Shown here one piece after another: positions 25,070 through 39,216 of a stretch of 39,216 bases of DNA. Both the position numbers and the translations under genes were made by a program. Position 1 is the stretch's first letter. The number at the start of each line of letters is the position of its first letter. The DNA lies in NCBI GenBank assembly GCA_938074745.1, contig CALJEJ010000035.1, positions 1 to 39,216 on the forward strand. Reading direction: 5' to 3'. The notes beneath the pieces were generated by a model. The model did no database searches. It was not told the origin of the DNA and was given only the letters and a program-made list of their open reading frames with translations. The stretch comes from an uncultured Endomicrobiia bacterium (GTDB lineage: Bacteria > Elusimicrobiota > Endomicrobiia > DTEH01).

Positions 25070-26530
25070 TTACACTTTTTTTTCTTCAAAATCAACAGGT
25101 AGATAAATAATAAATTTTGCTCCTTTGTTAACTCCTTCTGAATATACTGTGATTTTACCTTTATGATGTAAAATAATGTCTTTAGTAATAGACAACCCCA
25201 CACCAGCAAATTTTGTTTTATCTTTAGTAGTAAAATAAGGTTCAAAAATAGCCTCTAAAAATTGTTGTTGTATCCCACAACCTGTATCTTGAAATTCTAT
25301 TACCACATATTCTGAAGAACCGTTTTCAAGTTTTGTAATATACGTTTTTATTTGTAACAATTTTGGTTTTTCAGGGTTTATTTCTTCCATCGCTTGTATT
25401 GCATTATTTATAATATTAAGAAATGCTTGTTGTATATGTGGCAGTGAAATTTTTATTTTAGGAATATCATGACCAAAATTAATAATAGTTTCAATATTAT
25501 GTGCTTTTAATTCGCTATCTGCAATAAATAAAGTGTTTTTTATTACTTCGTGAATATCTTCTAAAGTATATTCATATTCTTTTTGTCTTGAAAACTGTAA
25601 CAATCTTGATATACTTTCACGACAACGTTTTGCAGCACGTTCTATTTTCTCCACATGCTCTCTTAATGGAGAGTTCAATGGAAGTTTTTCTAACAACAGT
25701 TGTGCTTGACCTAACACACCTACCAACGGATTATTAAGTTCATGAGCAATACCGCCAGCTAACTGGCCTATGTTTGATAATCTATCCATTTGCAAAATCT
25801 GTGTTTGGAAATTTTTTAAATTTTTTACCATCCAGTTGAACCCTTTAATAACTTCACAAAATTCGTCTTTGGAATTAAAATTTATCTCTCTATATTCACC
25901 TTTTGCAAGAAGTTTTGTTCCTTCTGACAATATTTTTAACGGTTTTATTAACGCTTTATAAATTTTTATAACAAAAATAACACTTGAAAATATTGACCCA
26001 ACTACAATTATTATACACAAAATTAAACTCACGATACTAATTTGAAAGATCTGTTTTTCAATTATATGTGCTTTTTTAGTATAAATATTACTTTTGTCTT
26101 CTACAATTTTTAAAATATTTTTATACAACGGCAAGAATTCTTCATCTATTATTTTAACTTTTGTATCATAATCTTTTTCATTAAAAATTTTGGTTACTAT
26201 TTCAACAAACAAGTTATACTGTGATAGAATATCTATTCCAGATTCTTTTTGTTGCCATTGGTTAACAAGTTCTACAGTTCGTGGAACAGTTAAATCAAAA
26301 TTTTCTTTCTCTTTTACATCGTGGAGTAGCATATAATAATCTACAATTTGTCGTTGTCTATTTAATAACTGTATTATTTCTGTTGTCAAATTAATTTCAT
26401 CTTTTAAAAGAACAAATTTTGTAAAATAATTTCTTAAGAAATACACTATTGACACCCAAAATAAGCATACTACAATTATTATTCCTAATAGTACTCCGAA
26501 GGCTACTTTTAATTTAGTTTTTATTTCCAT
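25070..26530 (-). CDS. membrane sensor histidine kinase
   Basis: A 486-aa protein: TM1 (~9-31), a ~130-residue periplasmic sensor of mostly helical character (32-160), TM2 (~164-190), HAMP (~191-245), HisKA with phosphorylatable His263 in GGIAHELNNPLVG, and an HATPase domain with N-box NIINNAIQAM, G1 DTGCGI, F-box FEPYFTTK and G2 GVGLSI. The HELNNPL form is typical of NtrB/HisKA kinases. No response regulator gene is next to it in the window. It follows the motor cluster but after a 198-bp gap, so co-regulation is not shown. Confidence 0.92.
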   Translation of the reverse strand: MEIKTKLKVAFGVLLGIIIVVCLFWVSIVYFLRNYFTKFVLLKDEINLTTEIIQLLNRQRQIVDYYMLLHDVKEKENFDLTVPRTVELVNQWQQKESGIDILSQYNLFVEIVTKIFNEKDYDTKVKIIDEEFLPLYKNILKIVEDKSNIYTKKAHIIEKQIFQISIVSLILCIIIVVGSIFSSVIFVIKIYKALIKPLKILSEGTKLLAKGEYREINFNSKDEFCEVIKGFNWMVKNLKNFQTQILQMDRLSNIGQLAGGIAHELNNPLVGVLGQAQLLLEKLPLNSPLREHVEKIERAAKRCRESISRLLQFSRQKEYEYTLEDIHEVIKNTLFIADSELKAHNIETIINFGHDIPKIKISLPHIQQAFLNIINNAIQAMEEINPEKPKLLQIKTYITKLENGSSEYVVIEFQDTGCGIQQQFLEAIFEPYFTTKDKTKFAGVGLSITKDIILHHKGKITVYSEGVNKGAKFIIYLPVDFEEKKV

Positions 26531-26728: not shown

Positions 26729-27442
26729 TTATATCCTTGAAATAACAAGTTCAATACGTCTATTTTTAGCCCTTTTTTCTTCTGTATCGTTAGCACGTGC
26801 AATATCTGTAGAAAGTGTCACAGGTTTAAATTCGCCATATCCTGCAATAGTAAACCTTTCCGGAGGAATTTTTTTTACATTAACAAAATAGTTTAACACA
26901 GACATTGCCCTTGCAATAGACAATTCCCAGTTGTTTGCAAACTCTTTCGTATGAATAGGAACATTATCAGTATGTCCTTCAATTATAATTGTATTTGTTT
27001 CTGGTAGGGTAAGTAACATCTCTGCTACACTGTCCAAAACAGAAATAGCAGTTTCGTCCAGGTCTGCTTTACCTGAAGCAAACAATACAGCTTTTTCACC
27101 AAATACAACACGAATTTTCTGTGCTGAAATATTAACTTGAGCACCTTCTGCCAAACCTCGTTCTTGCATATATTTTTGTAATTTATCAGCAAATTCAGTT
27201 TCTCGTTCCTTTTTTTCTATTTCTTTTTTTAATTTGAAATCTATTTTACCAAGTTCTGCTTGTATTCTCGTTACAACTCTTTCATAATCAATTTCATGGC
27301 CATAATATGTATAAGCGTACAACAAAAAGAAAAATATCATTAAAAAAGTCATAAGATTGCCGTATGGCACTACCCAAGAACTAGTATCTGGCTGATTTTG
27401 TTCTTCGGAACTAAATATAGTTTTTATAAAATTCTTTTTCAT
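26729..27442 (-). CDS. MotB-like protein 2 (Asp-to-Asn in the proton-channel helix)
   Basis: A 237-aa stator-type protein with one N-terminal helix (~27-47), a linker and an OmpA-like peptidoglycan-binding domain (~115-237, with IIIEGHTDNVP and NWELSIARAMSV). The helix begins VPYGNLMTFLMIFFF. In MotB the matching segment is FADLMTLL, whose Asp carries protons and is essential; here it is Asn29 (codon AAT). It lies 1 bp after the first MotB-like gene. Either it is a partner that anchors but does not conduct, or it uses another residue. A G-to-A substitution would explain the change. Confidence 0.88.
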   Translation of the reverse strand: MKKNFIKTIFSSEEQNQPDTSSWVVPYGNLMTFLMIFFFLLYAYTYYGHEIDYERVVTRIQAELGKIDFKLKKEIEKKERETEFADKLQKYMQERGLAEGAQVNISAQKIRVVFGEKAVLFASGKADLDETAISVLDSVAEMLLTLPETNTIIIEGHTDNVPIHTKEFANNWELSIARAMSVLNYFVNVKKIPPERFTIAGYGEFKPVTLSTDIARANDTEEKRAKNRRIELVISRI

Positions 27443-27443
27443 T

Positions 27444-28106
27444 TTATCTTTTTATAATCTTAATTCCGATACGTCTATTTTTAGCTCTATTTTCTTCAGT
27501 ATCATTTGGTGCAACAGGTCTATACTCGCCATATCCAACTGCAGACAATCTCGCCGGACTTATCTGATGATACCGAGAAAAATATTCTATTACAGAAAAC
27601 GCTCTTGCAGCGGAAAGTTCCCAGTTAGACTTGTATTTCCCACCAACTATAGGTACATTATCTGTATGTCCTTCAATAACAATTTCGTTTGGAATAGATT
27701 TTAATGTTGTAGCGACTTCGTCAAGGATAGTTTTAGCAGCATCTTTTAATTCTGCTTTACCAGAATCAAACAATACTGGCGAAGGTAGAGTAATAACTAT
27801 TTCTTCTTCTTTAACTTCCACTGTAGCAATATCTTTAAGTTTATCAGTTAACTGTTCTGTTTGCTGGTTGATTACTTGTTCTACTGTAGGTTTATCAGAT
27901 TTTTTCCCTAACTGTGCTAAGGTTGAGATAAGTTCTTGCCGTTTTACTGCGCTTAACCTTGTAAAAGCAAACAAAATTAAAAAAAATAATGCAAGGTTCG
28001 TCGTCATATCTGAATACACAGTACGCCAAGTGTTTAACCCTTGTTTAACTTCTTCTGATTCTATAACTTCTTCTTCAATAGGTTCTTCTACTTTATTTTC
28101 TGGCAT
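27444..28106 (-). CDS. motB: MotB-like protein 1 (proton-channel Asp present)
   Basis: A 220-aa stator B subunit. An acidic N-terminus is followed by TWRTVYSDMTTNLALFFLILFAF, in which Asp33 occupies the place of the essential E. coli MotB Asp32. The OmpA-like domain (~95-220) has IVIEGHTDNVP and NWELSAARAFSV and should bind peptidoglycan. It starts 7 bp after motA. With MotA it forms the expected A5B2 stator. Confidence 0.93.
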   Translation of the reverse strand: MPENKVEEPIEEEVIESEEVKQGLNTWRTVYSDMTTNLALFFLILFAFTRLSAVKRQELISTLAQLGKKSDKPTVEQVINQQTEQLTDKLKDIATVEVKEEEIVITLPSPVLFDSGKAELKDAAKTILDEVATTLKSIPNEIVIEGHTDNVPIVGGKYKSNWELSAARAFSVIEYFSRYHQISPARLSAVGYGEYRPVAPNDTEENRAKNRRIGIKIIKR

Positions 28107-28113
28107 ATACTTT

Positions 28114-28878
28114 TTACCTTCTTTTTTGTCTCATTTTATATGCTAAGAATGCTTGTAACCGTCTACTTACAATAGATGGTATTTCACCTGCTTGTATTGC
28201 CAAAATTCCTTCAATTGCAACTTCTTTAATTAAAAGTTCTTCTTCGGTATATGCATTAAGTTTGTTCGCTATGGGTAAAAAGATAAAATTTGTTCCAAAA
28301 ATACCGTAAAATGTTGTAATTACTGCTACTGCCATTGAAGTACCTATTGCTTCTGGATTGGTTAAATTTTTCAATACTCCAACAACACCTATTAAAGTAC
28401 CTAACAGTCCAAACACTGGCGCATACGCACCCATACTACGAAAGACAGAATGTATCTGTTGATGTCTTCTTCTGATAAACGTGATTTCTTTGATAAGATT
28501 TTCTCTGACTATTTCTGGTGGTAACCCGTCAAGAACCATCTGTAATCCATCTACTAAAAAATGGTCTTTAATATTTGGTAACTCGTTTTGCAACGAATCT
28601 ATACCGGAACGTTTTGCTACTTCTGCAAGGTGAACTAATAAATTAATATACTTTTCCGCGGTCCAACGCCGTTGAGGGAATAATGCTAACATCATTGCTG
28701 CTGGTACACGTTTTAAGATTCTATATGGATAAGTTAACAATGTAGAAGCGATTGTTCCACCAAGAACTAATACTAAAGAAGGAAAATTGTATATAAGGTT
28801 CAGTATACCACCAACTTTGAACACATAATATACTGCAAACACGCCTAACGCTAACCCTACCAATGTCATCAAATCCAT
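28114..28878 (-). CDS. motA: MotA-like stator protein
   Basis: A 254-aa inner-membrane protein with four predicted helices and the family sequences GGTIASTLLTYP and GAYAPVFGLLGTLIGVVGVL, whose Pro corresponds to the first essential proline of MotA; a second proline is in FIFLPIANKL. The cytoplasmic loop has charged residues. A GGGG-containing Shine-Dalgarno precedes the ATG. It is 18 bp after the FliF-FliG fusion. Confidence 0.94.
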   Translation of the reverse strand: MDLMTLVGLALGVFAVYYVFKVGGILNLIYNFPSLVLVLGGTIASTLLTYPYRILKRVPAAMMLALFPQRRWTAEKYINLLVHLAEVAKRSGIDSLQNELPNIKDHFLVDGLQMVLDGLPPEIVRENLIKEITFIRRRHQQIHSVFRSMGAYAPVFGLLGTLIGVVGVLKNLTNPEAIGTSMAVAVITTFYGIFGTNFIFLPIANKLNAYTEEELLIKEVAIEGILAIQAGEIPSIVSRRLQAFLAYKMRQKRR

Positions 28879-28896: not shown

Positions 28897-30393
28897 CTAC
28901 TTTTTAGATTCTACAATTTCAGCTTCTACAGTAAGACTTTTTTGTCTTTCAAGTTGTTCTTTTACAATTTTACTACGTTCTATATTTATTTCTCCTGAAT
29001 TTATTAAATCACGGATTGTAGAGACTATTTTCTTTTGTTCATTTTTAATAACCTTTTCACCAATTTCACCTAACAAATCCATTTGTTCTGCTAACATTGC
29101 ACGACCACCTTCAGTTAAACAATCCATAACTTTGTTTTTTATTTCCTCTGGCGTATTTTTTAACGCTATTGCTAAAGATATTCCACGACGTTGTGTTTCA
29201 CGAATAATTTTTTGTAATGTTGGTTTATCCAAAAACAAAATGTCTTCAAACAAAAATATTTTTTCTCTAAGTTTTTCTGCCAACTGCGGGTTCTGAAAAG
29301 ATAACGTTTGTAATATATCTTCTTGAACATCTTTATCTGCTTGGTCTAACAATGACAGAAAATAATCTTCTCCACCAATACAATAATCTATTCTTGATTT
29401 AATACTCTGTTCAATTTCTTGAACTTCTTGTGGGTCAGGCAGTTTCACTGAAGCAAGTTCTAACGCTACTTTTGTTTGTGTTTTTCTATCCAACATTGAC
29501 ATAAATTCTGTAGCCAAATCTGACGGTAAATAACTTACCACGAGCGCTATAATTGTTGGTGTTTCATCTTTCAATAAATACCAGAGGTTTTTTAAGTTTG
29601 CTCTGTTGATAAAATCAAAATGTTTCTTGGTAGTTTCTTTTTCTTTTTTCCCACCAACAGTTAATTCCATTGTTCCACCCATACCACCAGCAGCAGGTAA
29701 TCCTAAAGGTTCAGTTCCGGGTAATAACCCTTGTTGCATCTGTCCAGTCATATCCATTTTTTGTGTTCCGGAGAGTCTTGCATCAGCGTCAATTCTTAAT
29801 TGTACAGCTTTCACAATTGTTTTAAAAAAATGTGTCACAGGACCAAACAAAAATAATGCTATTACTAAAATTATAAACGGTAAATACAAATGTGGTAAAA
29901 TTTGTTCCAATATTGCTTGTAATGTAGGAACTTTTTGAAACTCTATCCTGCTAATATTAATTGTATCTCCTCGTTCAAGGTTAAGATTTATAAGTGCTGG
30001 TAATTCAGATTTTATTCTTTCTAAAACTTTTGGCGAAATTGTGTTATCTACTGCTATGTTGATTACAATTTTTTCAATTTGTAGTTGTATTGGCAAATTT
30101 TGTTTTTGTTCTACAGGGATGTATGAATAGGTAACACCTGGCAAATATTCTTCTTCACGTAGATATACTCCTGGGTAAGCCTCTGTTGTAGTAGCAGTTT
30201 CTTGTGTTGGAAGTTTCAGATATACATTAGGCACAACAACAAAATTTTTACTCCCTATAATTCGTTCTACAATAAGTTCAACTTTTTCTTGAATATTTTT
30301 TTCAAGTTGTATCTTTTCTTCGTTTAAAGACAAACTGTAAATACCAGCAGTTATAAAAAACAAAATTGTTATAGTAAAAAATTTTTTTTTCAT
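28897..30393 (-). CDS. FliF-FliG fusion: minimal MS-ring segment joined to the FliG motor domains
   Basis: A 498-aa protein. Residues 1-22 form a signal peptide or TM. Residues ~28-152 resemble the FliF ring-building segment before its last helix: EKVELIVERIIGSKNFVVVPNV, then IEKIVINIAVDNTI, and ALINLNLERGDTINISRIEF, the FliF sequence RGDxxxVxxxxF. TM2 (~168-186) leads into a Gly/Met-rich linker (~205-255). Residues ~265-470 match FliG middle and C-terminal domains: TIIALVVSYLPSDLATEFMSML, then REKIFLFEDILFLDKPTLQKII, SLAIALKNTPEEIKNK and IVSTIRDLINSGEI. The EHPQ motif of FliG-M appears as DETP, and the FliG N-domain, which binds the FliF tail, is missing. The covalent link makes that interaction unnecessary. 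Confidence 0.9.
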   Translation of the reverse strand: MKKKFFTITILFFITAGIYSLSLNEEKIQLEKNIQEKVELIVERIIGSKNFVVVPNVYLKLPTQETATTTEAYPGVYLREEEYLPGVTYSYIPVEQKQNLPIQLQIEKIVINIAVDNTISPKVLERIKSELPALINLNLERGDTINISRIEFQKVPTLQAILEQILPHLYLPFIILVIALFLFGPVTHFFKTIVKAVQLRIDADARLSGTQKMDMTGQMQQGLLPGTEPLGLPAAGGMGGTMELTVGGKKEKETTKKHFDFINRANLKNLWYLLKDETPTIIALVVSYLPSDLATEFMSMLDRKTQTKVALELASVKLPDPQEVQEIEQSIKSRIDYCIGGEDYFLSLLDQADKDVQEDILQTLSFQNPQLAEKLREKIFLFEDILFLDKPTLQKIIRETQRRGISLAIALKNTPEEIKNKVMDCLTEGGRAMLAEQMDLLGEIGEKVIKNEQKKIVSTIRDLINSGEINIERSKIVKEQLERQKSLTVEAEIVESKK

Positions 30394-30436: not shown

Positions 30437-30877
30437 CTATTTTTCCCGAACAATATAATCACTTTTTGACGAAATTTTGCTGTCTATTCTTAACAACAGT
30501 TCGCGGTTAATACGACTTTCTTCTACAACTAATTGTGCAATATGGTTTGCAATTTCTATTTGTCTATCAATTTTTTCATCCATTTTCTTTAACATTTCAG
30601 TCTGTCTATTTAGCATCTCAGTCTGTTTGTTTAACATCTCGGTCTGTTTATTTAACGTTTCAGTCTGACGGATAACAATTTCTTTAATTCCTTTTGTAGT
30701 TTCAGCTAACTCTTTTGTAGTTTCAGCCAACCCTTTTGTAGTTTGTGCTAATTCTTTTGTAGTTTGAGATATCTCATACACAAGTTTTCTTGTCCCGTTA
30801 AACACAAACAACGCTACACCACCTACCGAAGCTACTGTCCCTATGAATGTTATTATAGACACAGTTATAGTATCCAT
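30437..30877 (-). CDS. membrane-anchored heptad-repeat (coiled-coil) protein
   Basis: 146 aa. An N-terminal helix (ITFIGTVASVGGVALFVF, ~9-27) is followed by a long coiled coil of 7-residue repeats: TKELAQT, TKGLAET, TKELAET, then LNKQTEM three times, continuing into a charged tail. No cysteines or catalytic motif are visible, and I do not recognise the family. It is the first gene of the motor cluster, 43 bp before the FliF-FliG fusion, which suggests a structural or scaffold part. The start has no Shine-Dalgarno and sits 6 nt after a -10, consistent with a leaderless mRNA. Confidence 0.8.
   Translation of the reverse strand: MDTITVSIITFIGTVASVGGVALFVFNGTRKLVYEISQTTKELAQTTKGLAETTKELAETTKGIKEIVIRQTETLNKQTEMLNKQTEMLNRQTEMLKKMDEKIDRQIEIANHIAQLVVEESRINRELLLRIDSKISSKSDYIVREK
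30593..30775. repeat. two runs of 21-bp tandem repeats within the coiled-coil gene
   Basis: Four units at 30593-30676 (CATCTCAGTCTGTTTGTTTAA type) and four at 30692-30775 (TTTTGTAGTTTCAGCTAACTC type). The 21-bp period equals one heptad. The copies differ at several bases, so the repeats are not fresh. Confidence 0.9.
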
Positions 30878-31021: not shown

Positions 31022-32641
31022 TTATTTCTGTTGTGTTTTAAGACTTTCTTTTACTCGTTTTATAAACTCAGCCAACCTCGTATCTTTTTTATCCAAAGAC
31101 AATGCTTGTTCCCACATTTTTATTGCTTTTTCTTTTTCTCCCATAGCATAAAATGCAGAACCTAACTTTTTATATGCTTCAGCATCTTCAGGTTCAAGAA
31201 ACAAAATTTCGTCACATAAAGCTACTACACGTGCATAATCTTTTTTCCTAAACGCAATTAACGCTTCATTATGTTTCTGGTCGACAATAGTTCTACCGCT
31301 GGGCAACTCAATTTTTTCTGCTCTGATGCCAGTTTTTTCTTCTATTTTTGTCAACAACCGTGCTAAAGTTCTGTTTTCTGGTGATTTGCTTAATGCATAA
31401 CTTAAAAGTTTTACTGAATTAACATTATCTCCATTAATAAAATATCTCACTCCACGTAGAATTTTTGAATTTATATCTCCTTGTGCAGGTATAGTGGTAT
31501 AAAACGACGCTACTAAACTTACACGGTCTATATAAATATCTACATCGGTTGCCTCAGGTAAAACTTCTTTTGCTTTGGTAAATTTTGACAATGCCTGTTT
31601 AATATACCCACGAGTTGCATCTCTTATACCTTCTTCTAACAATGTTTGGAAATACTTCTTTTTTTCTTCTTCTGTTTGCAACTTTGCTTCTACTATTTCT
31701 ATATCTTCAGCAGTAGGCATACCTTTTATTTTTTCAGCCCAAAGTTCTTCTAACGTTTTGCCAAATTTGAAATCTAACGATATTCTGTGTGTGCTCCCAA
31801 GATAATCTTGAAGTACCAGCGCATAATCAAAATTTATGTTTTTATATATTACACCAAAACCTAATGTTGTTTCAAGATTGTTTCGTCCGGCACGTAGGTT
31901 AAACATTTTCCAAATAGATGTTTCTAATCCAAAACTGTAAGTATCCAACAATGAAGAACCTGTTTTTCGTTTACCTACATCAATACCTAAAATAAAAGTT
32001 TCAAAAGGTTTTATCCCTAAACCAAAGTTTACTCCTAAAGGTAACTTATCTTCTGTATCTGACAATGTCAAAGTAAATAAATTATTGAAATTTGCACCTA
32101 ATGTTATAGCAGAAGAAACAAGATAAATAATACCAATGTTTGTCGTAAAAAAGTTTTGTGAATATGTATAAAGAGAGTTAGAAACGAATTTTGCATTACC
32201 ACCAGTATAAAATTTCCGTATTATTTCCCTACCCCAGCAAAAGTTGAACAATACACTGTTAAACGAAAATTCGTTGCCAGTAAACTGGTTATATTCATTA
32301 GTTTCTTTAGCACCCCAGGAAGTTAGATGAGAAACACCTACTGCAAAATTGCCATAATCAACTGTTGGATGGACATAACCAAAATAGTTCATTATAGTAT
32401 TTTCGTAAAGAATTGCGGTAGCAAAACCTACCTCTTTACGGTTTATCATTCCTAATAACCCGCTGTTTAAATAACTGCTGAACACGTCAGCAGACAATCC
32501 TGCATAAGTGTTACCCATAGCGTTCACTCGTGCACCTAAAGGATAATTTAATATTGATGTTGTTTCCACTGCTACAATAATCCAACTTAGAAATAAAGAA
32601 TATATAACAAACCCTAATTTTCTTTCTACAAAAAATTTCAT
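31022..32641 (-). CDS. PorV/UPF0164-like outer-membrane barrel with C-terminal TPR domain
   Basis: About 539 aa from the ATG at 32641, which overlaps the upstream giant gene by 4 bp (ATGA); the track's 32662 start is less likely. A signal peptide (~1-24) precedes PLGARVNAMGNTYAGLSADVFSSYLNSGLLG, the pattern that opens PorV/UPF0164 beta-barrels (GARAxxMGxAxxAxxxDxxxxxxNPAGL). Alternating beta strands run to ~310. A TPR region (~325-535) includes AEAYKKLGSAFYAMGEKEKAIKMWEQALSLD. PorV-like proteins deliver T9SS cargo to the cell surface in Bacteroidota; here the upstream gene encodes a CTD-bearing protein, so a similar role is plausible. Confidence 0.78.
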   Translation of the reverse strand: MKFFVERKLGFVIYSLFLSWIIVAVETTSILNYPLGARVNAMGNTYAGLSADVFSSYLNSGLLGMINRKEVGFATAILYENTIMNYFGYVHPTVDYGNFAVGVSHLTSWGAKETNEYNQFTGNEFSFNSVLFNFCWGREIIRKFYTGGNAKFVSNSLYTYSQNFFTTNIGIIYLVSSAITLGANFNNLFTLTLSDTEDKLPLGVNFGLGIKPFETFILGIDVGKRKTGSSLLDTYSFGLETSIWKMFNLRAGRNNLETTLGFGVIYKNINFDYALVLQDYLGSTHRISLDFKFGKTLEELWAEKIKGMPTAEDIEIVEAKLQTEEEKKKYFQTLLEEGIRDATRGYIKQALSKFTKAKEVLPEATDVDIYIDRVSLVASFYTTIPAQGDINSKILRGVRYFINGDNVNSVKLLSYALSKSPENRTLARLLTKIEEKTGIRAEKIELPSGRTIVDQKHNEALIAFRKKDYARVVALCDEILFLEPEDAEAYKKLGSAFYAMGEKEKAIKMWEQALSLDKKDTRLAEFIKRVKESLKTQQK

Positions 32642-35600
32642 CTTATTACACCTATTTTCCATCTTTTTTGTTGTATACTACCAGTTTCATCTTTAGCTTC
32701 TATTACAAGAATATACATCCCTGTAGAAAAATCTTTACTTTCAGGACAATCTACAAAATTTGCTCCTTGTTTACCTCCATCGGAACCAGAAACAATTTTT
32801 CGTTGCCAAACAAGGTTGCCAAATAAATCAAATATTTTAAGGTTCACATCTGAATCTTTAGTTAGTATATAACTTATCTTTAGAACTGTTTTTCTGACAT
32901 CGCACGGATTAGGGAAAGTAGTTAAATTTGTAATTATATCTGAAGGTAATTGAATAACCACTGGCGAAGATTCTTTCGTCCAGTCAGAATATAAACCTGC
33001 TACATTCATTGTTCTTATACGATAATAATAAAATTTTTCTTTTTGTTTACCTTTCATTCTGAACTCTATATTAAAATTATAATCTTCAAGGTTATACCCC
33101 AGATTTGAAAACAAAGTTTTAAAATTCACAACTTCTACATTTGTAGGGTTCATTGGAGTAGTTACAAAAGTGTGTGTAAGTATCAAATCGTCATTTATCA
33201 CATTACGTGTAGAAAATATTATTTTATTTCCTGAAACAGTTTTTAAAATTTTGTTTGTATAGACTGCTCGGAATAGGGCCGTAAAATCAAGGTCTATACT
33301 TTGTACTTCAGTCCATAAAATTTCATTTCCTACTTTTTCCTGCAATATTATTTTTGATACTAAACTTTCTTGGTCGTCGTAATATTTACAGTTCAACCAA
33401 AACATATCATTACTTGGTGAAGAACCTTGAGGTTGTTGTGGTATTTCTGGTGGAGTACAGTCTACTAAAATTGTGAAATAATTTAGTCTTATGAACCCAG
33501 CGTTACTTTCTGATTTTACCCACACATAATAGATATTATTATGTTGCAAATTCAATCCTGAAAATGTATATTCTTGAGGTAAACCTATTGGAATAAACTT
33601 ATTCAAATCTGGATTATCATTTAAACTTCGTGGTTTATATGAAGCCAATCCTACATATCCTGTTTTTATTCCACCGCCTTCCGGTGCAACCGAGTACCAA
33701 CTAAATTTTATCTCGTTAGTATTAGGAATATAATACACAATATTTTCTACTTCTTTTCCCGTATCTATTCCTCTACCTAAAGGAACTGCAGGTGTAATTA
33801 TAGGTTTTGTAGGAGTTCTTTTATCCAACAAATTTATTTGTGAGGAGGAAAAATAACTAAACGGTTTCTGTTTATTAGGTAACGAATAATAAAATCCTGT
33901 CGGGTCAACACCAAAACCTATTGTTTTATCCGGTATTGCCTCTTTGTTAAAATCAAAAACTATAAATATTCGTGATATTTCGTCAAGAACTAATACAGGG
34001 TCGTATTGTAAATTTCCAGGGTTGAAAAATTTTAGTTCACACTTGCCAGAACTGTCAAACACGCCTGTAGAAACTAACACGTCAGTATAAGTGGAGAACC
34101 GTAAATCGCCATTGTCTAAATATACCTTTACCTGTTTCACAGTAGAAGAAGCTTCCGAAGTACCTTCGTGCGAAATTATCAGTTTCTGTAGTGTAGCATC
34201 ACAAAATGCTAACAAATCTATTTTTGCTATAAGTACATCTTGTTCATACAAAGCTGCTTCTTGTGGTGCTAACGAAGTAATTTCTGTAGAAACTTCGTCA
34301 GGCCAATCTGTTATAGTAAGTTCTGGAGAAACTAATGGAAAGTTTGCATTATCTACTATATCAGCACCACCTAAAGTGAAATATGTCGCAGTGGATAAGA
34401 CAAGTTTCAGTTTTTCTTCAGGAGTAGCGTTCTTGGGAATATAACATGTTATAAAATATGTCGCGTACTCGCCTAAACGTTCAATTTTGTCAATACGTTC
34501 CGGTTGAGAAAAAATAATTATCGCTGAATTGTTCTCAAACGTGCTACCACCTAATTTAATGTCTGAAGAATCTAAATCACCGTCACCGTTTACATCACGC
34601 CATACTTCTACTACTGTAGCGGAACTGCGGTTAAACCGTGTATACCTATCTGCTGCAGGTGTCCCTGAAGTAATCGTAGATTTATCAACACGTAACCGAG
34701 ACCAATCCGCTACACCTGCGTCTATTGATACACCGATAGGTAAAACTATCCTACGTTCACTTTGATAAATTTTTTCCGGTATACGAGCAATAATATCGCT
34801 CAACGGTTTCACATAAACAATATCTCGGGATACTTCTACACGAACTGTAGCTGATTTAATTTCGTCAACTATATCACTCAATTGCGACTGGATAGAATTC
34901 ACCCCTTCAGCGTCAAGCAAGAAGTATGTCGTGGTTAACATTGTTTTAATTGCAAACTTCACTTCTTGCTCTTCAGAAGAATATAACGAATCTGGCGAAA
35001 CTGTAACTACTACATAAAAGTATTTTACTGTTTTATCGGTAATTGTCTGAACTTGTGAAAATTCTAACAATGCAATACCGCCAGAAAATCTCGCAGAAGA
35101 CAAAAGGTTTTCAGGGAAAATATCATCTTTGTAAATTTTTATACTTTTAATATCCTCGTCACGAATATTTACTCCTGTGAGGTTCACTCTTAACTTCCTA
35201 AACGGCGATTCTGACTTGTCAGTTCTTAACCCAAACTTCATCATTATTCCTGAATCACCTTGTTCTAAAACAGAAGTTAGTTGATACCCGCTATCACTAA
35301 TTAAATATGTCCGAGTATCAACTTCTACTAACTGGACATTAACCACAGGAGGGATTACTGTAAAATATTCTAAAGTAGTCGTATCCTTGTAAGTAATATA
35401 TGGTAGATTATTTCGTGCAAACGCTACCCCTTGACTTATATTCAAACAACCAAAATCAAATTTTAGTGCAAAAGTTGTATCCAAGGGCGCATCTACTGAA
35501 AGGTCTATAACAACATCGTAATAATATGTAGCAAATGTTACTGAAGGTTGTGGAGTTAAATTTATTTCCGCACGGGAGTTTATAAATACTGAGGAACCCA

Positions 35601-38600
35601 ACAATTGACCACCTCGGAAAATTTTTATTGCATTGATATACTGGTCATCTAAAGTACCTAATTTGTCTACTATGACTTTAGCAATTTTCGTAGGAACTGC
35701 AGTGTCATAAGCAAACCGAACACCTAACTGTGCAACAGGTTGGTTTGTCCTCCCTTGGACAATTTTTGTAGCGGTGGTTCGTGGAGAAACTACTGTCGCG
35801 TTCCATAAATAATTTGGTGACTTACCTGACATAAAAACTTTTTCCCAACTTTGACCTAAATCTTTTGAAAGATAAATTGTTCCGCTGCTGCCTACTACAA
35901 CAATTTTTGTTGGGTCTATAAACCTGCAAGAATAGAATGTAAGATTTTGTGCCTGAGGTGGTGAAATATCTGTAAAAGTTGTTCCACCATCTGAAGTTAA
36001 ATAAACTTTACCACCACTACCACATAAAATACCTCGTGTTAAAGAAATAAAATGTAAACTATAAAATGTTACTGAAGTAGAAATTGTTACTGAAGTAAAA
36101 CTGTTTGCTCCGTCAGTAGTCTTTAGAAACAACCCGTTTGCACCACATAAAAAACCGTTATTAGAATCAATAAATTGTACTTTATACAAATCCGTAGCAC
36201 CTATGGGTAAATTTACCAAAGTAAAACTGTTTGCTGCGTCAGTTGTCTTTATCAAAGTAGAATTTTTCCCACAGATAAAACCTGTGTCATTAACAAAACT
36301 TATAGAATACAAATTTTCTGTTACTGGTGAAGTGATAGGAAACCAAGTCTCAGCTGTATCAGTTGATTTATATATAACTCCGTTATTACCACAAAGAATT
36401 ATTGTAGAAACAGTAACAAAATTTACATCGTTTAATTCTTCAGTACCAACTTGTGTCTGTTGATATGTAATAAACGAATTTGTTGATTTTATCACTAAAC
36501 CGTTTTTACCACAAACAACACTCGCAAAATTGTTAGAATCTATACTGTTGAACTTTTTGTTAACATCGTTGTTATAAATTTTTGTGAACCACTTATTTCC
36601 CGAATCTGCAGTAGCTTTTAAAATCCCTTTATCTCCTACTACATAACCGTTATTATTATCTACAAACAATACTGATTTATAATTTTGTTCCACTACTTCG
36701 GAAATTGTTATATACGCCTCTCCTGCATAGAAATAATTTCTTACTACAACACTTTTTCTCCCAGCATCTGATAAAGTAAAAGTTACCGAAGAAGGTTCTA
36801 TTAATATTCCCGAAATACTACTGGATAGTACTGCTACACCTTCAAAATCTACTGCTATATTATTTAATTTATCCAGTGCAACAATATAACACGGTTTGTC
36901 TACTTGAATCTGTGCTGAAGGGTCAAACGACCATCTTCCTTGAGGATCAATACTCGTAGCTACAGCAAACGAAACTGCTTTCCCGGGAAGAACCGTATGT
37001 TGTTGTGAAACCGTAAGCCAACCTTGTTCACCATTCCACTTTTCTAACGCTGCAAGTTCGTCTACATAAATAGTGGGATTACCAGAATTCTCGTCTCTAT
37101 AATAAAAAGAACCTTTAGAATACCCAGGTAATATATTTAACCTGTTTATACCAAAATTTACCCCGTCTAACGAAAACTCGCCTTTGGTAGAATCTGACCG
37201 TAACTCACATTCTCCACCAAATTGAGAAATTATTTCATCACCATCTTCGTCTATACATTGAACTTCAATTTTCCCAGAAGAATCGCCTGCATAAAATGTA
37301 TATGGCAAAGTAGTAAATTTCAATGTATGAACTTTAGAACTACGTGAACGTAACAAAAACAGGTTATTAACATTTGTTGCAACCAAAGACCTATTACCTT
37401 CAGCATCTTCAGTACGGATAGAAAACCAGTATGTAAGACCAGGAACAAGACCTGTAATAATACATTCCTGAGGCTCTCCTGCAGAAACATTAAAAGTAGA
37501 AATTATAACCACACCGGAAACGTTCCCAGTAGAAGTTTTTATTTCAGTAATATTTTCAAACTCTTGTTCTGTAGTAATTATCACTCCTGCACGGTATTTT
37601 ATTATATATTTACCAGACACAATATTCCCTGAAGTAGCATCTTCAGTTGGTGCTGTCCATTGAAGTTTCACTGTTCCTTCTTTACCCTTACCTCGTTGTA
37701 CAACCAGATCTGTAATCTGTGATGGACAACCAACAAATTTGAACGGTCCTAAAAGTTGTTCTACAGGAGAGGGGATATTCTCATAATTATAACTGCGAAC
37801 AATAAAATACCAATTCTCACTGTTTTCCGTGGCTATAGGTAAATATTCCGGTGGTAAACCTGAAACTTCCGCACCACCTCCTAAAGTGTGTGTAGCGGAC
37901 GATGGGTACCACAAAACAGCAGAACTTTCATCCCAACTAGAAGTTGTCTTCCAGACAACTTTGTAATATGCAACCCGACCTACCCCAGTAGAGTATTCTG
38001 AAATAAACGAAAATGTTTGTGTCCTGTACCATACATCAGTAGAAATTGATATGTAAGTATAGGAAGTCAAAAATGCGACGAACTTTTCAGCTTTTACTGC
38101 AGGTGGTAGAGGATGTGTGTATTTGTAATACGGTGCATCTTGACCATTTATATTTCTTGCAGCGTTACCACCGTTGTCGTTATATGCGACAACATACCTA
38201 CCGTATTGCGTGTTCGCAGAAAGGTTCTCTTCATACCAAACAGTTGTATCCGGCGAAAGTTCCGCAATTAATCCTTCAGAAGTAGAAGTTATAACCAGAT
38301 ACCCACCATCTTTGTTATACGGCCGTGTGTCAGAATAAATCCTGTATCCACTGAGGTAATACGTAGGAGTTGATGTTACCCATGACCATTTTATTGTAGT
38401 AGAAGATATTACTTCACCTTTGAACTGAACAGCTCGTAACGGTAACGGTTCAAATTCAAACCCTATCTTGTCAACTACTGGCGTTGTACTACCGTCGGAA
38501 TAGAATTCTATTTTGTATTGTACATATCTTCCCCGACCTATTATATTAGACGGTTCAGGATACGGGTTCATAATGAGTTCTCTCCATACCGGAAAAGTAG

Positions 38601-39216
38601 AAAGTTTAACAAACGAAGTATTACTTGTCCTTGCATAAACTTTTATACTTTGCCCATTTGTTGTAACAGTCCATGAAGCATAGACAAAATTTGTGTTATC
38701 ACTATAAGTATCATACACCTCGGATAAGAAATAGCCATATTGATAATAAGGAGTATATGATTCTATACTTTCTATACTAACAGTAGGTTCTGGTGTTGTA
38801 TATTTACGAACAATTATTTTATCCACCCAACCAGAGTCATAACCATAACTACCACTAGCGTCCTTGGTATACTCCCATTGGAGGTTTCTTATCCCAGCGG
38901 AAAGTACTGTAGAATACAGGGTCCAACCTGTTTCGCCTCTAATTCTACTTTTTACCTCACCATCTACACGAAATCTCAGTTGGTCTTCCGCATTACTTTC
39001 ACAGGACACCATCCAGTAAAATTCTATCCTTGCCTGCATTGAAAGGTTTATACTTGTCCTTATATATGTCAGTTGATTATGTGTAATAGAACCGCTAATA
39101 ATATCATACTGTCCTTCGTAAACATTTACTGTCCCTGTAGACTCTTTACCCTTATATAAAGGTTCACTACTAACATGAATTCTGAAATATGGTGGATCAC
39201 CACCTCTCACCCACGG
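32638..39216 (-). CDS. giant secreted surface protein: FN3-type domains, Ycf48/BNR-like propeller and FlgD-Ig/T9SS-like C-terminus (5' end outside window)
   Basis: At least 2190 aa. The track begins at a GTG at 39210, but the frame continues to the window edge (PWVRGGDPPYF), so the true start lies outside. From the N-terminus: beta-sandwich and fibronectin type III-like domains, e.g. SGYRIYSD and LQWTAPTEDATSG (~250-640); Ig-like region (~650-845); ~7 Ycf48/BNR-like repeats of ~40 aa (~845-1122, NNGFLCGANGLFLKTTDGANSF); further beta-sandwich domains; and a C-terminal ~90-residue domain (from about 2100) with FPNPCDVRKT, LKIFDLFGN and STGMYILVIEAKD, a FlgD-Ig/T9SS type A-like sorting domain. 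It is likely a secreted adhesin-like surface protein, co-translated with the PorV-like gene. Confidence 0.88.
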   Translation of the reverse strand, partial: PWVRGGDPPYFRIHVSSEPLYKGKESTGTVNVYEGQYDIISGSITHNQLTYIRTSINLSMQARIEFYWMVSCESNAEDQLRFRVDGEVKSRIRGETGWTLYSTVLSAGIRNLQWEYTKDASGSYGYDSGWVDKIIVRKYTTPEPTVSIESIESYTPYYQYGYFLSEVYDTYSDNTNFVYASWTVTTNGQSIKVYARTSNTSFVKLSTFPVWRELIMNPYPEPSNIIGRGRYVQYKIEFYSDGSTTPVVDKIGFEFEPLPLRAVQFKGEVISSTTIKWSWVTSTPTYYLSGYRIYSDTRPYNKDGGYLVITSTSEGLIAELSPDTTVWYEENLSANTQYGRYVVAYNDNGGNAARNINGQDAPYYKYTHPLPPAVKAEKFVAFLTSYTYISISTDVWYRTQTFSFISEYSTGVGRVAYYKVVWKTTSSWDESSAVLWYPSSATHTLGGGAEVSGLPPEYLPIATENSENWYFIVRSYNYENIPSPVEQLLGPFKFVGCPSQITDLVVQRGKGKEGTVKLQWTAPTEDATSGNIVSGKYIIKYRAGVIITTEQEFENITEIKTSTGNVSGVVIISTFNVSAGEPQECIITGLVPGLTYWFSIRTEDAEGNRSLVATNVNNLFLLRSRSSKVHTLKFTTLPYTFYAGDSSGKIEVQCIDEDGDEIISQFGGECELRSDSTKGEFSLDGVNFGINRLNILPGYSKGSFYYRDENSGNPTIYVDELAALEKWNGEQGWLTVSQQHTVLPGKAVSFAVATSIDPQGRWSFDPSAQIQVDKPCYIVALDKLNNIAVDFEGVAVLSSSISGILIEPSSVTFTLSDAGRKSVVVRNYFYAGEAYITISEVVEQNYKSVLFVDNNNGYVVGDKGILKATADSGNKWFTKIYNNDVNKKFNSIDSNNFASVVCGKNGLVIKSTNSFITYQQTQVGTEELNDVNFVTVSTIILCGNNGVIYKSTDTAETWFPITSPVTENLYSISFVNDTGFICGKNSTLIKTTDAANSFTLVNLPIGATDLYKVQFIDSNNGFLCGANGLFLKTTDGANSFTSVTISTSVTFYSLHFISLTRGILCGSGGKVYLTSDGGTTFTDISPPQAQNLTFYSCRFIDPTKIVVVGSSGTIYLSKDLGQSWEKVFMSGKSPNYLWNATVVSPRTTATKIVQGRTNQPVAQLGVRFAYDTAVPTKIAKVIVDKLGTLDDQYINAIKIFRGGQLLGSSVFINSRAEINLTPQPSVTFATYYYDVVIDLSVDAPLDTTFALKFDFGCLNISQGVAFARNNLPYITYKDTTTLEYFTVIPPVVNVQLVEVDTRTYLISDSGYQLTSVLEQGDSGIMMKFGLRTDKSESPFRKLRVNLTGVNIRDEDIKSIKIYKDDIFPENLLSSARFSGGIALLEFSQVQTITDKTVKYFYVVVTVSPDSLYSSEEQEVKFAIKTMLTTTYFLLDAEGVNSIQSQLSDIVDEIKSATVRVEVSRDIVYVKPLSDIIARIPEKIYQSERRIVLPIGVSIDAGVADWSRLRVDKSTITSGTPAADRYTRFNRSSATVVEVWRDVNGDGDLDSSDIKLGGSTFENNSAIIIFSQPERIDKIERLGEYATYFITCYIPKNATPEEKLKLVLSTATYFTLGGADIVDNANFPLVSPELTITDWPDEVSTEITSLAPQEAALYEQDVLIAKIDLLAFCDATLQKLIISHEGTSEASSTVKQVKVYLDNGDLRFSTYTDVLVSTGVFDSSGKCELKFFNPGNLQYDPVLVLDEISRIFIVFDFNKEAIPDKTIGFGVDPTGFYYSLPNKQKPFSYFSSSQINLLDKRTPTKPIITPAVPLGRGIDTGKEVENIVYYIPNTNEIKFSWYSVAPEGGGIKTGYVGLASYKPRSLNDNPDLNKFIPIGLPQEYTFSGLNLQHNNIYYVWVKSESNAGFIRLNYFTILVDCTPPEIPQQPQGSSPSNDMFWLNCKYYDDQESLVSKIILQEKVGNEILWTEVQSIDLDFTALFRAVYTNKILKTVSGNKIIFSTRNVINDDLILTHTFVTTPMNPTNVEVVNFKTLFSNLGYNLEDYNFNIEFRMKGKQKEKFYYYRIRTMNVAGLYSDWTKESSPVVIQLPSDIITNLTTFPNPCDVRKTVLKISYILTKDSDVNLKIFDLFGNLVWQRKIVSGSDGGKQGANFVDCPESKDFSTGMYILVIEAKDETGSIQQKRWKIGVIR

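Follow-up and report, generated by a model that had tools for sequence, protein, structure and literature searches.

A MotB-like protein with asparagine in place of the channel aspartate is encoded next to an aspartate-bearing MotB in an uncultured Endomicrobiia bacterium, and this Asp-less state of one of two tandem MotB proteins is real, clade-conserved and recurrent in the Elusimicrobiota, where it arises again and again and is afterwards kept. The genes lie beside a FliF–FliG fusion, and we consider it likely that together they encode an obligate heteromeric MotA5–MotB1–MotB2 stator, in which one Asp is sufficient and which turns a FliF–FliG rotor within an envelope machine independent of flagella. 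The window, by which we mean the whole stretch of 39,216 nucleotides analysed here, is contig C35 in a genome of 1.52 Mb that comprises 85 contigs and is 94% complete. An earlier note on the same DNA had proposed a stator with one active and one inactive B subunit or a non-conducting anchor; this interpretation holds in part, and it missed both the absence of a flagellum and the rotor fusion.

The channel Asp, Asp32 in Escherichia coli MotB, has long been regarded as essential for ion flow. The two MotB genes of the window are intact open reading frames arranged in tandem on the minus strand behind MotA (28114–28878, minus strand). MotB2 (26729–27442, minus strand; 237 amino acids) and MotB1 (27444–28106, minus strand; 220 amino acids) are both MotB-like according to Pfam, scoring 31.2 and 31.1 bits for MotB_plug (cut-off 24) and 73.9 and 80.5 bits for the OmpA-like domain, again both above the cut-off. 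Residues Y30-A31-D32 of E. coli MG1655 MotB align with Y31-S32-D33 of MotB1, within the motif YSDMTTN and with Asp33 encoded by GAT (28008–28010, minus strand), and with Y27-G28-N29 of MotB2. The plus strand reads ATT at 27356–27358, giving the minus-strand codon AAT for Asn29, so that codon and alignment both confirm the Asn that the earlier note had placed at the Asp32 position. MotA is of the flagellar type (Pfam MotA_ExbB, 89 bits; best NCBIfam matches MotP, MotA and PomA), with four transmembrane helices and both channel prolines conserved. The prolines, equivalent to E. coli P173 and P222, are present in 91 and 92, respectively, of 92 operons compared across the phylum, and judged by sequence the stator is of the flagellar MotAB type.

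These operons come from a search with a tandem-type MotA profile, which matched 82 of 341 Elusimicrobiota genomes and yielded 92 complete MotA–MotB1–MotB2 operons, a sample in which related genomes are counted several times. In all 92, a single MotA gene precedes a pair of MotB genes. In the order MotB1/MotB2, the channel position is Asp/Asp in 65, Asp/Asn in 12, Asp/Gly in eight, Asp/Ala in two, Asp/Ser in one and Asp/Thr in one, and the Asp is missing from MotB1 in the remaining three (Cys/Asp in two and Gly/Asp in one). One partner thus lacks the Asp in 27 of the 92 operons and both partners lack it in none, so that at least one channel Asp is present in every complete operon. Single-MotB stators sampled from the phylum carry the Asp in 20 of 20 cases. 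When MotA, MotB1 and MotB2 were concatenated and a tree was built with the Asp positions masked, MotB2 required at least six changes between Asp and non-Asp, to Asn, Gly, Ala, Ser or Thr, and MotB1 two, to Cys or Gly; because there are only two MotB1 loss events, the absence of double losses is not significant by itself. The best 80 loci of a genome-wide search contained no tandem MotB pair outside the Elusimicrobiota, other phyla being only shallowly covered. Among the loci examined, the single MotB of an ordinary flagellar operon in Clostridium folliculivorans (L089:6983–7690) has Ser at the channel Asp (WLIPFSSTT).

Within the window's own clade the Asn of MotB2 is common to the window and genomes G003, G007 and G013, the G003 protein being 65% identical to that of the window. 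At the level of the class, Asn also occurs in G049:C3, Asp is found in the MotB2 of G005, G008, G015, G024 and G042, and MotB1 always has Asp. The earlier note had asked whether the Asp/Asn split is conserved in relatives, and it is, in this clade and through the repeated losses described above. That note also took Asp in both copies of relatives as a sign of a strain-specific mutation or sequencing error, which proves too strict: the majority of operons are indeed Asp/Asp, yet the Asn is fixed within clades, and Asp/Asp relatives therefore do not make it a strain mutation. Since Asn occupies the channel site in relatives down to 44–46% protein identity, sequencing error is excluded.

The Asp-less copies are under purifying selection. 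For close pairs dN/dS is 0.06–0.11 in MotB2 with Asn or Gly and 0.16 in MotB1 with Cys, in the same range as the Asp-bearing copies (0.04–0.16); the more diverged pair of the window and G003 gives 0.155, with dS near saturation. The peptidoglycan-binding residues of the OmpA-like domain (TD, NxxLSxxR and NRR) are kept in all Asp-less copies in which the C-terminal domain is covered. The view in the earlier note that the Asn protein is retained rather than decaying is thus upheld by an intact peptidoglycan-binding motif and a dN/dS of 0.06–0.16. A decaying paralogue, a strain mutation or a sequencing error is ruled out as an account of the Asn by its conservation within clades, the intact reading frames and the low dN/dS; we found no point in its favour and regard it as barely credible.

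The OmpA-like peptidoglycan-binding residues are the best-kept part of Asp-less MotB2, as would be expected if the protein stood outside the MotA pore as an extra peptidoglycan anchor, with its OmpA-like domain as the link to the motor. The transmembrane helix, however, is also conserved in the Asp-less copies, and a residue of the MotA pore shifts with the Asp state, if weakly; we therefore think an anchor outside the pore quite improbable. The pore residue in question is MotA 188, which lies in the channel helix beside the residue that matches E. coli Thr209. Of all MotA columns it correlates best with Asp loss in MotB2 (phi 0.81): 22 of the 24 operons whose MotB2 lacks the Asp have Thr there, and 56 of the 65 Asp/Asp operons have Ala. 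A kinship-corrected test left five pairs, with three for, none against and two ties (p about 0.25). The covariation is suggestive only, because the position was picked post hoc from all columns and five pairs cannot reach significance; it is as if MotB2 lined the same pore as MotB1.

Another reading retains two working sites and holds that the ion-binding acid has been relocated within MotB2 or MotA. A case of this kind may be seen in G207 (L190:4434–5108), where MotB1 has Cys at the Asp site and an Asp one helix turn later, at a position that is otherwise an invariant Asn in MotB1. Its sister in G229 (L218), however, has the Cys and no shifted Asp, and the transmembrane helix of the window MotB2 contains no further Asp or Glu, which makes relocation very unlikely.

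The two MotB proteins are not equivalent. Four residues after the Asp position, MotB1 has Asn in 91 of the 92 operons and MotB2 in 13, while Pro three residues before it occurs in MotB2 in 79 operons and never in MotB1. The two proteins fall into separate groups in the tree, although the split is weakly supported and one MotB2 group is misplaced. Two operons, G128:C6 (L227) and G205:C51 (L258), have a MotB2 with a MotB1-like helix (YSDMMTN and YGDMMTN), perhaps through gene conversion or a separate duplication. The layout is reversed between the partners in G024:C8, where MotB1 has kept the Asp and lost the peptidoglycan-binding motif and MotB2 has lost the Asp and kept the motif, a mirror image that fits labour divided within one unit.

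The gene directly upstream of MotA encodes FliGf (28897–30393, minus strand), the presumed rotor subunit, in which a signal or transmembrane segment and an RBM3-like region homologous to the C-terminal part of FliF are joined through a transmembrane helix to the middle and C-terminal domains of FliG. Both FliG domains are matched in Pfam (FliG_M and FliG_C, 60 and 89 bits), and the protein is 23% identical to E. coli FliG over 205 residues. FliG_C is found in 36 of 36 FliGf homologues and YscJ_FliF_C in 21 of 36, and a FliGf profile searched against the PDB retrieves FliG (1.9e-56) and FliF chains (7.5e-07). An AlphaFold model (mean pLDDT 80.9, pTM 0.47) matched FliG structures in Foldseek at 1.9e-11 and FliF MS-ring structures weakly, at about 3e-03. 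In the torque helix of FliG, E. coli Lys264 is matched by Lys or Arg in 33 of the 36 homologues, and an acid persists at Asp288/Asp289 in 34, the two exceptions coming from Asp/Ala and Asp/Gly operons. A third, diverged operon lineage (L051 and L277–L285; Asp/Gly and Asp/Ala) is one whose sampled FliG fusions lack this acid. FliGf lies directly upstream of MotA for 91 of 103 MotA genes examined.

FlhA and FliM/FliN domains were absent from the window genome and 59 relatives in searches whose controls gave matches, and a published survey likewise reports that flagellar genes are absent in Elusimicrobia (PMC7031533). A flagellar context is thus ruled out. The FliF–FliG fusion beside MotA and the MotB genes, taken with the absence of FlhA and FliM/FliN, indicates that the operon encodes a stator and a rotor without a flagellum. 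The window genome also holds a second pair of PorV-like and FliF–FliG-type genes (G000:C6, L287:4859–8439), with a FliG protein of 628 amino acids and no adjoining MotA or MotB. Such pairs without adjoining stator genes occur besides other stators in G001, G003 and G007 as well, and one stator may serve two rotors.

Further genes of the same orientation surround the operon. Upstream lie a small membrane and coiled-coil protein (30437–30877, minus strand), whose weak relation to ZorA-type coiled coils reflects low complexity, and an outer-membrane barrel of the PorV/PorQ family with a TPR tail (31022–32662, minus strand; NF033709, 80.9 bits, just below the cut-off of 90). A PorV/PorQ-like barrel adjoins FliGf in class relatives as well (L038, L039, L045 and L287–L292). 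Farther upstream is a very large multidomain protein of 2190 amino acids (32638–39210, minus strand), presumably secreted and tied to the motor by position alone; it has Fn3-like and Ycf48-like repeats, a C-terminal tail that by eye is like type IX sorting domains, and reaches the end of the window. Just downstream of MotB2 is a HAMP histidine kinase identified by Pfam (25070–26530, minus strand), which also follows MotB2 in G003 (L037:9614–11065) and possibly regulates the motor.

The recurrence of an Asp-less MotB kept by selection suggests a natural motor with one ion-binding site instead of two. We infer heterodimer formation, single-site ion flow and rotation, together with an output at the outer membrane and the task of the machine, along the following lines. 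Asp33 of MotB1 would be the working ion-binding site, and MotB2 would fill the second axle position, bound to peptidoglycan through its OmpA-like domain, with Asn29 resembling a site that is always protonated; MotB1 would then be the sole route for ions. According to a published model, the B subunits of a 5:2 motor work in alternation, and a turn takes ten ions in steps of 36 degrees (PMC9389320). The same turnstile with Asn on one side would be expected to use about five ions per turn in 72-degree steps. Loss of the Asp would be tolerated while one partner retains it, which agrees with the zero double losses in 92 operons. The stator would push the FliG part of the fusion, and the RBM3-like periplasmic part would relay the motion, probably to the outer membrane at the PorV-like protein. 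One-site operation is not required for the system as such, since the majority of operons are Asp/Asp.

A half-Asp stator might also fail, because homodimeric MotB with Asn in place of the Asp brings the motor to a halt in both E. coli and Borrelia burgdorferi, although some of these stators still assemble (PMC6663468). It follows that inactive MotB2 homodimers could act as a brake or spacer, and the operon may encode two stators that share MotA, in which MotB1 homodimers conduct and Asn-MotB2 homodimers compete for rotor sites and serve as a brake or a bearing or to regulate assembly. In B. burgdorferi, MotB-D24N units do assemble, reaching an occupancy of about 45% around the motor (PMC6663468), and the maintenance of the Asp-less copies under selection accords with such a role. 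To our knowledge, MotB is homodimeric in every solved flagellar stator. Each Asp loss should then create a new function, however, yet five different residues are seen in MotB2 and Cys or Gly in MotB1, with no double loss, and Asp/Asp as the commonest state of the paralogues is left unexplained. We regard two stators as unlikely, if worth serious attention, and favour the heteromeric stator. The one-active, one-inactive arrangement of the earlier note gains from the recurrent, one-sided loss of the Asp and from the Asp retained in every operon; that both MotB proteins sit in one pentamer is something we infer.

Whether a 5:2 stator needs both Asp residues is an open mechanistic question, which is hard to ask in homodimers because one mutation hits both B subunits. 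A two-gene stator in which evolution has fixed the loss of one Asp makes it directly testable and predicts step size and ions per turn. A FliG-based motor without a flagellum, FliM or FliN also bears on the role of rotor proteins in filament-less bacteria, which a survey of flagellar loss recorded and whose function it left open (PMC12199754). No published description of a FliG/MotAB system in the Elusimicrobiota was found in the open-licence literature, and the part of a 2025 survey of MotAB evolution on which we draw mentions no two-B operons (PMC12505986).

Among known systems, the flagellar MotA5–MotB2 stator (E. coli MotAB, Campylobacter jejuni 6YKM and PomAB) shares with the window a MotA with both channel prolines, a MotB with plug and transmembrane helix and a peptidoglycan-binding OmpA-like domain whose binding residues are kept, and a FliG partner with a charged torque helix. 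It differs in that here there are two different MotB genes, of which MotB1 has the ion-binding Asp in its transmembrane helix and MotB2 has Asn29, in a genome without the flagellar export gate and FliM/FliN. The gliding motor AglR–AglQ–AglS of Myxococcus xanthus resembles the operon in having one A-type and two B-type genes, the layout of all 92 operons, and no flagellum. AglQ and AglS are both predicted to carry the Asp, and whether they form hetero- or homodimers is not known (PMC9389320); unlike the OmpA-type B subunits found here by Pfam, they are TolR-like, and the system has no FliG. The flagellar FliF–FliG rotor of the MS-ring and C-ring has the same RBM3 homology, transmembrane helix and FliG middle and C-terminal domains, whereas here they form one short fused protein without RBM1/RBM2, FliM/FliN or a filament. 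The GldLM motor of type IX secretion is, by description, likewise of 5:2 stoichiometry with coupling to the outer membrane, and a PorV-family protein is a neighbour here; by description also, GldM lacks an OmpA-like domain and the GldL sequence is not MotA-like. What is probably new against these systems is a B subunit encoded by two genes, presumably as a heterodimer, that would offer a single ion-binding site to a FliG-based machine lacking a flagellum. Tentatively, and with slightly less than even confidence, we would set beside them a natural one-site 5:1:1 rotary stator that has two different axle subunits, of which one alone binds ions, that evolved as either partner repeatedly shed its Asp, and that drives a non-flagellar FliF–FliG rotor.
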